Made by a program: the position numbers and the translations under genes. Positions 6,751 to 10,430 of a DNA stretch of 10,430 nucleotides are shown in pieces. Every line of letters begins with the position of its first letter. Within the stretch, counting starts at the first letter, position 1. Location: NCBI GenBank assembly GCA_019750345.1, contig JAIEON010000066.1, positions 1-10,430 of the forward strand, written 5' to 3'. Source of the DNA: Patescibacteria group bacterium (GTDB lineage: Bacteria > Patescibacteriota > Minisyncoccia > Phycocordibacterales > UBA9973). The notes below the pieces were generated by a model. The model searched no databases, was not told the DNA's origin, and saw only the letters and a list, made by a program, of their open reading frames with translations.

Positions 6751-7122
6751 ATGAACAAAGATCTCTCACATCTGACAGAAGAAGAACGACATGTTACTCA
6801 AGAGAAGGGGACAGAGCGACCATTTTCAAATAAATATTTTGATCATCATGAAAATGGTGTATATACCTGTAAGGTCTGTGGTGAGCAGTTGTTTGATTCT
6901 TCGACTAAGTTCGATTCAGGGACAGGGTGGCCATCATATGACGCTCCAATAAGGACTGATTCTGTAGAGTATGTAGAGGATACTACTCACGGTATGTCTC
7001 GTGTAGAGGCACTCTGTGCACACTGTGGGGCTCATCTCGGACACGTCTTCAATGATGGTCCTACGAGTACCGGAAAACGGTTTTGTATTAATTCAGCTAG
7101 TTTGAATTTTGAACAAAAATAG
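6751..7122 (+). CDS. msrB: Peptide-methionine (R)-S-oxide reductase
   Basis: This enzyme reduces the R epimer of methionine sulfoxide in oxidised proteins. The 123-residue single-domain length fits MsrB. Zinc is held by two CxxC pairs, C40/C43 (CKVCG) and C89/C92 (CAHCG). The core motifs GTGWPSY (57-63), GAHLGHVF (93-100) and RFCINSASL (110-118) are present, with C112 as the catalytic cysteine. In E. coli MsrB a resolving cysteine lies in the SGCGWPS segment; here that position is threonine (SGTGWPS) and no other cysteine remains. It should therefore act as a one-cysteine enzyme, regenerated by a thioredoxin-like or low-molecular-weight thiol. The stop is directly followed by the terminator palindrome. 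Confidence 0.95.
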   Translation: MNKDLSHLTEEERHVTQEKGTERPFSNKYFDHHENGVYTCKVCGEQLFDSSTKFDSGTGWPSYDAPIRTDSVEYVEDTTHGMSRVEALCAHCGAHLGHVFNDGPTSTGKRFCINSASLNFEQK

Positions 7123-7166
7123 TAAATAAAAAGAGCTCTCCCATATGGGAGAGCTCTTTTTATTTA
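7123..7166. terminator. Bidirectional terminator: perfect 44-bp palindrome
   Basis: Every base from 7123 to 7144 pairs with 7166 to 7145, with no mismatch. The centre is GAGCTCTCCCATATGGGAGA, and the arms end in AAAAA on one side and TTTTT on the other. It begins at the base after the msrB stop and includes the stop codon of the convergent acidic-protein gene. It thus fills the whole space between the two genes and can terminate both transcripts. Confidence 0.9.
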
Positions 7167-7418
7167 GCGAGCGTCGAATCCTTTGTCTTCATCAAAGAAG
7201 TAAGAAGCTTCTTCAGTGTCTACTTCTTCTTCGTCTTCTTTTCCTTCCTCATCTTCATCAAGTGGGCTTCGTTTTACAGGTAAAACGTCAGTGTCATCGA
7301 TTGGAGTATCCGAGTCATCAACTTCGTCTACTGCATCAACATCTACTGTGCTCATACCTTCGGGTAACTCTTCCTCTGTTAATTCATCTGGGCCCCCGAA
7401 CTCAATATCATCTGACAT
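7164..7418 (-). CDS. Highly acidic low-complexity protein (84 aa), function unknown
   Basis: About 36 of 84 residues are Asp or Glu and only about five are Lys or Arg, so it is strongly negatively charged and probably largely disordered. The N-terminus is MSDDIEFGGPDELTEEELPE, the middle is a D/V/T-rich stretch, and the C-terminus ends with ASYFFDEDKGFDAR, the only aromatic-rich part. No family is recognised. The minus strand is chosen over the opposite serine-rich frame because its stop sits inside the shared terminator palindrome and because it lies in line with ruvB-ruvC. A nucleic-acid mimic, a metal or cation binder, or a partner of a basic protein are possibilities only. No Shine-Dalgarno is visible. 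Confidence 0.6.
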   Translation of the reverse strand: MSDDIEFGGPDELTEEELPEGMSTVDVDAVDEVDDSDTPIDDTDVLPVKRSPLDEDEEGKEDEEEVDTEEASYFFDEDKGFDAR

Positions 7419-7503: not shown

Positions 7504-7992
7504 TTATTGCCAGGTGGAGACCTTTAGTGCACCAGCTGCTGCAAATCCTACTGCAATGGCATCAATTTCATCATCTAAAAGTTTACTAGTGTCCAGTACG
7601 AGAGTCAGTGCTACCATTTTTTGTACCTGCGCTTTGTTTGCGTTCCCACTACCAGTCATTGATTGTTTTACTTCTTGAGGAGATAGTTCTATCAGTGGGA
7701 TATTGTGGAGTCCTGCGAGTGTCACTACAATTCCACGCGCTTCAGCTACTTTCAACGCGGTAGTTTTATTGACTGAAAAAAACAGTGTTTCAACAGCAAT
7801 ATGTGTTGGTTGCCATTCTTCGATTAATGCTTGTATAGCTTTGAAAACAAAGGCTAATCGAAACGAGTGAGTATCGGTTTTTTTTGTGGTGATACAGGTT
7901 GATGTTTCGAGTTGCGGTTTGCCATGCTCTACTGTAATCAGTGCTGCACCACATCGGTCATATCCAGGATCAATAGAGAGAATTCTAGTCAT
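7504..7992 (-). CDS. ruvC: Holliday junction resolvase RuvC
   Basis: An RNase H-fold endonuclease that cuts Holliday junctions symmetrically during recombination. At 162 residues it is close to the usual 160-175. The acidic active site is complete: D8 in the first strand (ILSIDPG), E68 (IAVETLFF), and D141 with D144 near the end (DEIDAIAVG). The conserved central stretch VKQSMTGSGNANKAQV (108-123) is also present. The ATG lies eight bases inside the end of ruvB in another frame, so translation is probably coupled to ruvB; no separate ribosome binding site is needed or seen. ruvA is not in this window. Confidence 0.95.
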   Translation of the reverse strand: MTRILSIDPGYDRCGAALITVEHGKPQLETSTCITTKKTDTHSFRLAFVFKAIQALIEEWQPTHIAVETLFFSVNKTTALKVAEARGIVVTLAGLHNIPLIELSPQEVKQSMTGSGNANKAQVQKMVALTLVLDTSKLLDDEIDAIAVGFAAAGALKVSTWQ

Positions 7993-8968
7993 TGGTTAAA
8001 TAGTCACGACCCGTTTCTGTGAGAATACGACCTCGTGGGGTTCGCTCTATTAATCCAAGTTGTATGAGGTATGGCTCTATAACGTCTTCGATAGTGCCCT
8101 CGTCTTCACCGGTCGCAGCAGCGAGGTTTTTTACTCCGGTTGGACCACCATTAAATTTGTCTCGAAGTGTGACGAGAATAGTAATGTCACTTTGTGAAAG
8201 ACCGTTGTGGTCGAGACCGAGCAGTTCAAATGCGTCACGAACTGAATCTGTGTCTATCTCTTTTTTATGCATTTGTGCATAGTCACGAACTCGTCTGAGA
8301 AGATAGTTGGCGATTCGAGGAGTTTTACGAGAGCGTGACGCAACACTCGGGAGAAGTTCTGTAGGAAGTACCACTCGCAATATCGCGGCAGAGCGACCAA
8401 TGATGGTACTAATTTCTTCATCAGTATAAAAGTCTAAACGAAACGCACCACCAGAAAAACGAGAACGAAGTGGGCTCGAAAGCATACCAAAACGAGTAGT
8501 TGCACCGAGCAATGTAAATGGGGGAAGCTCAAGTTGAATAGTTCGCGCACTCGGACCCTTACCAATCATGATGTCGAGTTTACCAGTCTCCATCACAGGA
8601 TAGAGGACTTCCTCAATTGTTTTATTGAGGCGATGAATTTCGTCGATAAAAAGCATATCACCCGGTTGAAGGTTAGTGAGTATTGCTGCAAGATCGCCGA
8701 CGCGCTCAATGGCTGGACCTGATGTCACGCGAAGGTTTGCTCCGACTTCTTTTGCAATAACATGGGCGAGTGTTGTCTTGCCGAGCCCTGGTGGTCCATA
8801 AAAAAGAATGTGTTCTGGAGAGTGACCACGCTCTTTTGCTGCTCCCAAAAGTATTGAAAGGTTCTTTTTTATTTGCGTTTGACCAATATATTCAGCGAGA
8901 GAATTAGGGCGGAGAACATTGTCGCTAAATTGGTCGTCTAATGGGGGAATAGGAAGTGGGCTTGACAT
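7985..8968 (-). CDS. ruvB: Holliday junction branch migration helicase RuvB
   Basis: The hexameric AAA+ motor of the RuvAB complex drives branch migration at Holliday junctions. From ATG 8968 the protein has 327 residues, normal for RuvB, and starts MSSPLPIPPLDDQF shortly before the conserved LRPNSLAEYIGQ (19-30). Walker A is GPPGLGKTT (58-66), Walker B is LFIDEIHR (106-113), and sensor 1 is in GATTRFG (155-161). The arginine finger lies in PLRSRF (166-171). The C-terminal winged helix includes GGPTGVKNLA (274-283) and IERTPRGR (307-314). The frame stays open for 34 more codons to GTG 9070, but that extension has no family counterpart and would overlap the promoter region. The gene overlaps ruvC at its 3' end. 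Confidence 0.95.
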   Translation of the reverse strand: MSSPLPIPPLDDQFSDNVLRPNSLAEYIGQTQIKKNLSILLGAAKERGHSPEHILFYGPPGLGKTTLAHVIAKEVGANLRVTSGPAIERVGDLAAILTNLQPGDMLFIDEIHRLNKTIEEVLYPVMETGKLDIMIGKGPSARTIQLELPPFTLLGATTRFGMLSSPLRSRFSGGAFRLDFYTDEEISTIIGRSAAILRVVLPTELLPSVASRSRKTPRIANYLLRRVRDYAQMHKKEIDTDSVRDAFELLGLDHNGLSQSDITILVTLRDKFNGGPTGVKNLAAATGEDEGTIEDVIEPYLIQLGLIERTPRGRILTETGRDYLTND

Positions 8969-8979
8969 TTTAGAATGGT

Positions 8980-8988
8980 ATGCTATCA
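8980..8988 (-). promoter_or_regulatory. Proximal candidate -10 of the ruvB-ruvC operon
   Basis: TGATAGCAT on the minus strand (TG-N-TAGCAT) ends 11 bases before ATG 8968, giving a leader of zero to about five bases. It is a 4 of 6 match to TATAAT plus the TG extension. Confidence 0.35.
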
Positions 8989-9024
8989 TGTCTTCAGAGT
9001 CGTAGAGCAATGAAGGTTGTCTAC

Positions 9025-9033
9025 ATTCTAACA
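9025..9033 (-). promoter_or_regulatory. Distal candidate extended -10 of ruvB-ruvC
   Basis: TGTTAGAAT on the minus strand (TG-N-TAGAAT) has the same hexamer as the epimerase promoter. It would give a leader of about 50 bases. It overlaps a plus-strand TACATT (9022-9027) that could serve the putative RNA gene. Confidence 0.35.
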
Positions 9034-9037
9034 CAAC

Positions 9038-9185
9038 AAAGAATATATAAATCTCTAAGCAGTCAGCCACAGGTTCTAAGTGTCGGCGCAGGACGTTTTG
9101 GTTTCGACTGGGGCCATCCTACAAATATGCTTTACTTATAGAGCACTGTCTCTATAAGGACTGTTTAGAGATTTATGCATTTTTT
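9038..9185 (+). ncRNA. Putative structured non-coding RNA between ruvB and pilB
   Basis: No credible protein frame fills the 275 bases between ruvB and pilB. The segment is closed by a 27-position helix, 9038-9064 with 9159-9185. It has 23 Watson-Crick pairs, three wobbles (9059/9164, 9046/9177, 9041/9182) and one mismatch (9045/9178). All three wobbles are G-U on the plus strand and would be C-A mismatches on the minus strand, so a plus-strand RNA is indicated. The 3' arm ends in six Ts (9180-9185), as a terminator would. A perfect 9-bp hairpin (9135-9143/9150-9158, six-base loop) abuts the closing helix. Two weaker hairpins are possible at 9066-9087 and 9090-9120. A TACATT box at 9022-9027 would place the 5' end near 9034. 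I recognise no family; part of it resembles the tmRNA 5' end. Confidence 0.5.
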
Positions 9186-9205
9186 GTTCCAATAGGAATG
9201 AGAAA

Positions 9206-9235
9206 AATCCCCTACAACAATTGTTGTAGGGGATT
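9206..9235 (-). terminator. Rho-independent terminator of pilB
   Basis: A perfect 30-bp palindrome (AATCCCCTACAACAA and its complement) begins nine bases beyond the pilB stop on the minus strand. There it is followed directly by a T-rich tail that includes the last two bases of the stem (ATTTTTC). The plus-strand side lacks a U tract, so it mainly ends pilB transcription. Confidence 0.85.
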
Positions 9236-9243
9236 CTCCATTT

Positions 9244-10430
9244 CTAGTCTTCGTTCAAATCCACAACAGACTCTACTTCAGCGAAGTCTGTAAGTCCCTT
9301 AAGGATTTTTACAATACCATCTTCTTTCATATCAAGAGTTCCTTGTAGTGTGGCAACTTTTTTAATATCTCGCTCACTCGGACTATCGATAATGATTCTC
9401 TCGATACGTTCATCTGTTTGAATCGCTTCAAAAATACCAAGACGTCCTTTGTAACCAGTACTATTGCAATGCTCACAGCCTTTCACTCCCCAGAGAGTAG
9501 TAACATCTCTCTGTACGCCGTATTGTTCCATGTTTTTACCTTCAGCAATTGCAGCGTCCCAAATACGAGTAATATGAGCGAGTTCTTCTGTGGTTGCGGG
9601 TCGTTCGTATTTACACTCTGGACATAGTGTGCGAACAAGGCGTTGGGCGATAGAGAGTGATAGTGCAGAAACCAAAATCTTCGGGTTCACATCCAGGTCA
9701 ATGAGTCGAGGGATAACACCAGAAGCATTGTTGGTGTGAAGTGTTGAAAACACTAAGTGTCCGGTGAGCGCGCTCTCTACTGCAATCTTTGCGGTTTCTG
9801 AGTCACGGATCTCACCGACCATGATTACGTCTGGGTCCTGACGAAGCGCGCTGCGAAGTCCTTCTAAGAAGGTGTACCCCTTTTTGTGGTCAGTCTGTGT
9901 TTGAGTAATACCGGCTATGTGATATTCAATCGGGTCTTCAATAGTAATAATTTTTAATTCTTGTGAAAATATTTTCTTCAAAAAAGCATACAGGGTAGTA
10001 GTCTTACCACTCCCTGTTGGTCCGGTAAGGAGAATCAATCCGTTAGGCTTTTTGATTTCTTTCATAAATATTTCGTACAACGGAGCACTAATACCGAGTT
10101 CATCAAGTTGCACTTGAATACTTTTTGGATTCAAAATACGGAGCACAATACTTTCCCCGTACGCCCCCGGAATCATTGAAGTACGAAAGCTAATTTCTGT
10201 TTCTTCTTCAAGTGGTTTAAAGAACGCGCTAAAGCGACCGTCTTGTGGGTTGCTGTTGATGGTAAGCTTGAGTCCTGATAATAATTTGATACGAGTATTG
10301 ATTTGCTTGTAGGTTGCGGCATCAAACTGTGTAATCACACGAAGTACACCATCAAGACGGAATCGAAGTTCAACAGAGCTTTCCATTGGTTCGATGTGGA
10401 TATCAGATGCGCCGAGACCAATTGCTGTAC
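9244..10430 (-). CDS. pilB: Type IV pilus assembly ATPase PilB/GspE family (5' end outside window)
   Basis: This hexameric secretion ATPase powers pilus extension at the inner face of the membrane. The frame is open through the right edge, giving 394 visible residues; 14 codons lie upstream of the first in-window ATG (10386) and encode TAIGLGASDIHIEP, a hallmark of the family's N2 domain. So ATG 10386 is not the start. Counting from that Met: RFRLDG (8-13), Walker A GPTGSGKTT (122-130), Asp box ITIEDPIEY (147-155), Walker B region DPDVIMVGEIRD (184-195), His box TGHLVFSTLHTN (208-219). A zinc-binding tetracysteine follows, C255/C258 and C304/C307. PilB is favoured over type II GspE from the likely lineage, in which type IV pili are widespread and type II secretion is not. 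The gene ends in its own terminator. Confidence 0.93.
   Translation of the reverse strand, partial: TAIGLGASDIHIEPMESSVELRFRLDGVLRVITQFDAATYKQINTRIKLLSGLKLTINSNPQDGRFSAFFKPLEEETEISFRTSMIPGAYGESIVLRILNPKSIQVQLDELGISAPLYEIFMKEIKKPNGLILLTGPTGSGKTTTLYAFLKKIFSQELKIITIEDPIEYHIAGITQTQTDHKKGYTFLEGLRSALRQDPDVIMVGEIRDSETAKIAVESALTGHLVFSTLHTNNASGVIPRLIDLDVNPKILVSALSLSIAQRLVRTLCPECKYERPATTEELAHITRIWDAAIAEGKNMEQYGVQRDVTTLWGVKGCEHCNSTGYKGRLGIFEAIQTDERIERIIIDSPSERDIKKVATLQGTLDMKEDGIVKILKGLTDFAEVESVVDLNED

Follow-up and report, generated by a model that had tools for sequence, protein, structure and literature searches.

The ruvB–pilB gap contains a long inverted repeat

The window analysed here (the whole stretch of DNA, 10,430 nucleotides in length) contains two minus-strand genes separated by a short gap. 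On one side lies ruvB (7985–8968), which matches NCBIfam NF000868 and TIGR00635 above cut-off. On the other lies a gene for a pilB/gspE-like ATPase (9244–10386) that runs off the window; its best matches, TIGR02533 and TIGR02538, both fail to reach their cut-offs, probably owing to truncation of the gene at the window end. Between them, at 9038–9185 on the plus strand, lies a structured element with ruvB as its divergent and pilB as its convergent neighbor. A perfect 30-base palindrome at 9206–9235, between this element and the end of pilB, is likely a bidirectional terminator. A further inverted repeat at 7086–7174, 3′ of a small methionine-sulfoxide-reductase-like frame (named by reading), is probably also a terminator, and gives weak matches to many Rfam hairpin families.

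The first-pass annotation described a long inverted repeat around 94 bases in this gap, and mapping of the pairs reproduced its counts exactly. The arms of this closing helix, here termed P1, lie at 9038–9064 and 9159–9185 and form 27 positions, comprising 23 Watson–Crick pairs, three wobbles (9041/9182, 9046/9177 and 9059/9164) and a single A–C mismatch (9045/9178). The six Ts reported at the end of the 3′ arm are present at 9180–9185, within the helix, and give it a terminator-like close. A perfect 9-bp hairpin (P4, 9135–9158, pairing 9135–9143 with 9150–9158) abuts P1, also as described; its sequence is variable and covaries in relatives. The plus-strand fold is predicted at −59 kcal/mol (z = −7.44), with 0/200 dinucleotide shuffles as stable, and the minus-strand fold is weaker yet also unusual (−52, z = −5.55; 0/200 shuffles as good).

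The arms between P4 and the 5′ side of P1 had to be partly redrawn. The hairpin at 9090–9120 (P3b) is backed by relatives, and features a conserved core, AGGAC...UGG...CUG...AUCCU, with tandem U–G/G–U wobbles and a variable tip. A second proposed hairpin, at 9066–9087, occurs only in the single-sequence fold and is not conserved; alignments of relatives instead support a short hairpin, P2 (9065–9075; 9065–9067/9073–9075), whose length varies among relatives, and a helix, P3a (9078–9132; 9078–9081/9129–9132), which the first-pass annotation had missed. The four-way junction that had been inferred from the single sequence thus stands, formed by P1, P2, P3 and P4, with the replacement of 9066–9087 changing which arms enter it. 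The P3 arm is short.

Relatives covary and identify the RNA strand

The element was aligned with 29 relatives by sequence alone using MAFFT (30 sequences including the window; alignment A1). Here 96.7% of cells pair, two-sided changes occur in 23 of the 53 pairs (13.3 in shuffles), and compensatory cells number 161 (43.5 in shuffles), a level of covariation reached by 0/500 shuffles and 0/6 slid versions. Covariation among the ruvB–pilB relatives, named beforehand as a check on the helix, is therefore strong. A broader alignment, A4, comprises the 92 of 100 sources that matched at E ≤ 2e-13; these sequences were fitted to the model, hence A4 is biased towards it. Its pairs change on both sides in 46 of 53 cases, including 26 of the 27 P1 pairs and all four P3a pairs (three of four in A1), and 93.3% of its cells pair. 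When A4 columns were ranked by mutual information, blind to structure, the top 29 column pairs were all model pairs.

The A4 counts leave out L141, L160, L162, L164, L188, L195, L199 and L212. In these eight loci, three of them named as Adler- or Kaiserbacteria, the P1 arms are retained and enclose a different interior; an AGGAC-type core was recognized in four of them, and they possibly comprise a subfamily.

The three P1 wobbles had been read as a sign of plus-strand RNA, and the relatives bear this out. Across 55 loci there are 376 GU/UG cells, which pair only in plus-strand RNA, versus 35 AC/CA cells, which pair only in the minus strand; the underlying set (A3, 105 rows) covered both strands and the best row per locus was kept, so the model chose the strand. 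This asymmetry indicates that the plus strand is the RNA strand. We judge the RNA to be non-coding, because its lengths across relatives (147–214 nt) leave all three possible remainders when divided by three, and its longest internal ORFs are short (median 19 aa, at most 46).

The family is found within one bacterial class

The genome of origin (466,719 bases in 113 contigs, 81.75% complete) contains one copy of the element; the other rows of the search are the RNA's own arms. The first-pass annotation had named dispersal as a mobile repeat as grounds for doubt, and this single copy speaks against it; a mobile or dispersed palindromic repeat, which would be expected in several copies, was rejected on the same count. 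Nucleotide search of 148 genomes, including this one, detected clear copies in nine of the 11 other genus members (E 1.4e-19 or better), chance-level matches only in the remaining G003 and G008, and copies in many genomes of the family.

To this we added two covariance models, whose E-values are rough. The first, R1, was built from A1, and scores the window element, one of its training sequences, at 148.2 bits on the plus strand and 39 on the minus strand. At E ≤ 0.01, R1 detected the RNA in 135 of the 147 family genomes, among them 97 of the 106 that are at least 90% complete. In an even sampling of the order it matched 145 of 197 genomes at E ≤ 1, 143 of them at E ≤ 2e-4; the 30 training sequences match by construction, and the matches in other families do not. 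The 12 family and 52 order genomes without a match include some that are nearly complete, and loss, divergence or assembly gaps are possible reasons. The second model, R2, was built from 44 sequences spanning the order. It matched 55 of 285 genomes in a class sample at E ≤ 0.1, with 38 outside the order, of which 25 score at least 50 bits. In a phylum sample, 16 of 332 genomes matched, five of them outside the class and at most at 30.2 bits. With R2 the opposite strand of true copies scores 28–59 bits, such that scores under roughly 60 bits are weak evidence on their own, and position beside ruvB was therefore used as the criterion instead.

This position is strikingly constant. Among 30 family loci, ruvB is upstream and divergent in 30, and pilB downstream and convergent in 26, with no pilB recognized in the other four within the 1.5 kb examined. 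Beyond this family, 49 loci elsewhere in the order or class were compared; RuvB was recognized in a neighboring frame at 45 and PilB at 44, and every one of the 49 had at least one of the two. Of 40 hand-picked weaker matches (20 class, 20 order, a set that excludes the still weaker G508, G530, G249 and G315), 38 have ruvB on the same stretch and 38 a pilB-like gene; L292 has pilB in the other orientation. As the models hold no flanking sequence, this neighborhood is independent support that the weak matches are real.

By contrast with such loci, the five phylum-level matches outside the class were judged to be palindromes; in the three that were compared, the nearest frames match neither RuvB nor PilB. 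A weak class match in G581 (L277) was likewise set aside as a bare palindrome lacking ruvB and pilB. Convincing matches are thus confined to one CPR class among the genomes sampled, in agreement with the early suggestion of a CPR-specific RNA. A pattern scan of named genomes recovered, among the matches listed, Candidatus Nomurabacteria, Taylorbacteria, Zambryskibacteria, Adlerbacteria, Kaiserbacteria, Vogelbacteria and other Paceibacterota.

Three further sets of matches deserve mention. In the order sample, second matches lie on other contigs of G106 (C9, 51.7 bits), G244 (C42, 56.4 bits) and G273 (C45, 71.2 bits), and may be second copies, mixed bins or palindromes. A Lachnospiraceae genome accounts for at least six rows (L148, L152, L184, L193, L201 and L207), representing an unrelated element, a long palindrome in whose arms some letters of P1 recur; the P3 core is absent from the four copies inspected. 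In IMG/VR, the P1 arm pattern gave no matches and the P3-core pattern a raw count of six. One of these, L304:825–927 (IMGVR_UViG_3300050132_000108), lies on a phage-like contig that also encodes a primase and a chaperonin, and scores 27.6 bits; it has the same core and P3a- and P4-like helices, with no matching P1. The L304-type RNA is absent from L306, the one relative found.

The RNA's predicted promoter is entangled with the ruvB start codon

Upstream of the RNA body we predict a σ70-type promoter, with a −35 box, TTGACA, at 8962–8967 and an extended −10 element (TGC followed by TATCAT) at 8981–8989, at a spacing of 16; both the sequence and the relatives support the latter. By rule of thumb, transcription is expected to start near 8996, so that a leader of approximately 40 nt may precede the RNA body in the window. 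A promoter of this type points at the RNA in 84 of 91 loci and is found on the opposite strand in two, compared with a mean of 7.2 and a maximum of 13 in mononucleotide shuffles; L153, whose upstream sequence is too short, was left out of the count. The extended −10 (TGn before the hexamer) is present in 77 of the 84. Across loci, P1 lies anywhere from 4 to 121 nt beyond the −10 element.

The −35 box overlaps the start codon of ruvB, which reads CAT at 8966–8968 in the minus-strand direction. This arrangement recurs: among 88 loci with a perfect TTGACA, 60 have a start codon at TTGACAT in frame with RuvB (a few are not ATG). The remaining 28 have a promoter-like pair with no recognized overlap, some of which may reflect chance or cut contigs. 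Sharing of letters between promoter and start codon could explain why the RNA stays beside ruvB. It also raises the alternative that the locus is a local regulator, in which making the RNA from a promoter over the start codon would oppose ruvB transcription or translation, by collision or through an antisense leader, a reading in keeping with the in-frame −35 box and the strict neighborhood. We consider it distinctly unlikely, since the conserved part is the folded body, which in the window is clear of ruvB, the variable −10-to-body distance implies that an antisense leader would be absent in some lineages, and the 28 loci noted above lack a recognized overlap.

At the 3′ end, a T-rich stretch follows P1 in 50 of 92 loci versus 16% of 548 control stretches. 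The claim of a built-in terminator accordingly holds for the window and about half of the relatives, and is unproven for the 42 that have no T-rich end. At the level of sequence, then, conservation, covariation, strand asymmetry and the promoter all back the discrete plus-strand RNA of about 150 nt that was originally put forward, and we infer that it is transcribed and stable.

These observations bear on whether the element might be a mere DNA palindrome, a mobile-element end, or an elaborate intergenic terminator. The length of the inverted repeat and its T tract would fit such an origin, unrelated palindromes with similar arms do exist, as in the multicopy Lachnospiraceae case, and second places are listed in G106, G244 and G273. 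Against this, the element is single-copy in its own genome, GU cells far outnumber AC cells, P2, P3 and P4 covary, and the internal helices and core are conserved behind a promoter of their own; we regard this explanation as so improbable that it can be set almost wholly aside.

The RNA matches no family in Rfam 15

Searches of Rfam 15 assigned the window region to no family, beyond weak hairpin noise, and none reached its gathering score in 12 divergent relatives. At E ≤ 10, the window and three relatives gave weak matches far below cut-off, mostly to microRNA precursors; RF04205, a microRNA family, recurs in two of the three relatives at 23–30 bits (cut-off 139.7). Matches of this kind are common with long hairpins, which we take to explain them. 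The first description of the RNA as undescribed is upheld to this extent, and the family appears new as judged by its absence from Rfam 15, the sole basis for its newness.

A likeness to 6S RNA had also been suggested. 6S RNA binds RNA polymerase and templates a product RNA, and its layout is a long rod, comprising a closing stem, a large single-stranded bubble and a terminal stem. As family membership the suggestion finds no support: RF00013 has no match in the window at E ≤ 5, in 8960–9250 at E ≤ 10, or in the three divergent relatives, and the covarying P2, P3a and P4 fill the place of the open bubble. RF00013 exceeded its cut-off in 0/60 order genomes, a weak guide to absence given that only five of 14 controls were positive (four over cut-off). 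Two weak 6S matches in the order (E 0.0038 and 0.0044) lie on contigs other than those carrying the RNA. The RNA might still be a lineage-specific replacement that binds and holds back RNA polymerase outside the 6S family, as it is stand-alone, has a consensus promoter and is widespread in an order where the post looks vacant. We consider this unlikely: the vacancy depends on that same insensitive search, the RNA region and the three relatives lack 6S matches, and a conserved four-way junction with a short P3 arm contrasts with a rod bearing one open bubble.

SRP RNA was considered because the order has none detectable. RF00169 and RF01854 were each found in 0/60 order genomes at E ≤ 0.1 with stricter filters, versus 12 (nine over cut-off) and nine (three over cut-off) of 14 controls, respectively. 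This identity was rejected because the Ffh M domain, PF02978, through which the protein binds SRP RNA, was likewise found in 0/60 order genomes at E ≤ 0.001, against 14/14 controls; a possible explanation is loss of the signal recognition particle in this order. For tmRNA, neither RF00023 nor ARAGORN matched in the window. The letters GGTTTCGACTGG, which we take by eye to resemble the 5′ region of tmRNA, suggested a tmRNA piece, which was rejected as a separate tmRNA lies on a different contig of this genome (G000:C109, 91 bits) and relatives swap these letters for other tips. RNase P RNA is separate from this RNA, and was detected in 55 of 60 order genomes, 23 over cut-off. By the tests run, the RNA belongs to no tmRNA, SRP RNA or 6S family.

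Conserved helices favor a protein-binding RNA

Conservation reaches at least 90% at 40 window positions; modelled pairs account for 36 of these, another two face each other in P4, and the last two, 9094 and 9116, are unpaired. Nowhere in the window do two or more adjacent model-unpaired positions reach 85% conservation, and the loops, internal ones included, differ among relatives in both sequence and length. The middle of P1 is conserved, reading CUCUAAGCAA/UUGCUUAGAG in most relatives. This distribution makes trans control of mRNAs by a base-pairing small RNA very unlikely in our estimation, as no conserved unpaired run is available and the loops drift, even though size, a dedicated promoter and a terminator-like end would all suit such an RNA.

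Since nearly all conserved letters lie in helices, with no conserved unpaired seed, a trans-acting, protein-binding housekeeping RNA is the favored reading. With somewhat better than even confidence, we propose that the locus encodes a stand-alone, structured non-coding RNA outside the Rfam 15 families, which has its own promoter and acts in trans within an RNA–protein particle. Transcription would begin from the σ70-type promoter at the ruvB start and end at P1 and its T tract. The transcript would fold into a body closed by P1, with P4 beside it and P2 and P3 as side arms, the P3 core being nearly invariant and irregular. Acting in trans as the RNA part of a particle, it would present the conserved P1 middle and P3 core to a protein, helix identities of this kind being readable by proteins or tertiary contacts, and tips and loops would be free to drift. 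A more far-reaching version, to which we give slightly less than even chances, is that this is a class-wide housekeeping RNA of Paceibacteria, comparable in its spread there to RNase P RNA or tmRNA; it would assemble with a protein into an as yet unknown particle, in a lineage without detected 6S or SRP RNA, and be held in position by the entanglement of its promoter with the ruvB start codon.

Few RNAs of housekeeping type are conserved throughout a bacterial class. CPR bacteria are abundant, have few genes and for the most part lack cultured members, and a conserved RNA among them points to a cellular function invisible to protein annotation. The family offers a search model, a conserved core for pull-down or structural work, and a marker for metatranscriptomes.

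Comparison with known RNAs

Among known systems, tmRNA (RF00023) differs in that the stretch GGTTTCGACTGG is here a UNCG-type tip, replaced by other hairpins in relatives. 6S RNA (RF00013) is closer in general character, being likewise stand-alone, of similar size and closed by a helix; it differs in placing a bubble between two stems where this RNA has a four-way junction, and the two share no covariance match. Bacterial SRP RNA differs in having no match in the 60 order genomes, where PF02978 is also not found, and the arm tips of the present RNA are variable; the two resemble one another in being housekeeping-like and widespread, with a conserved core set within a helix.
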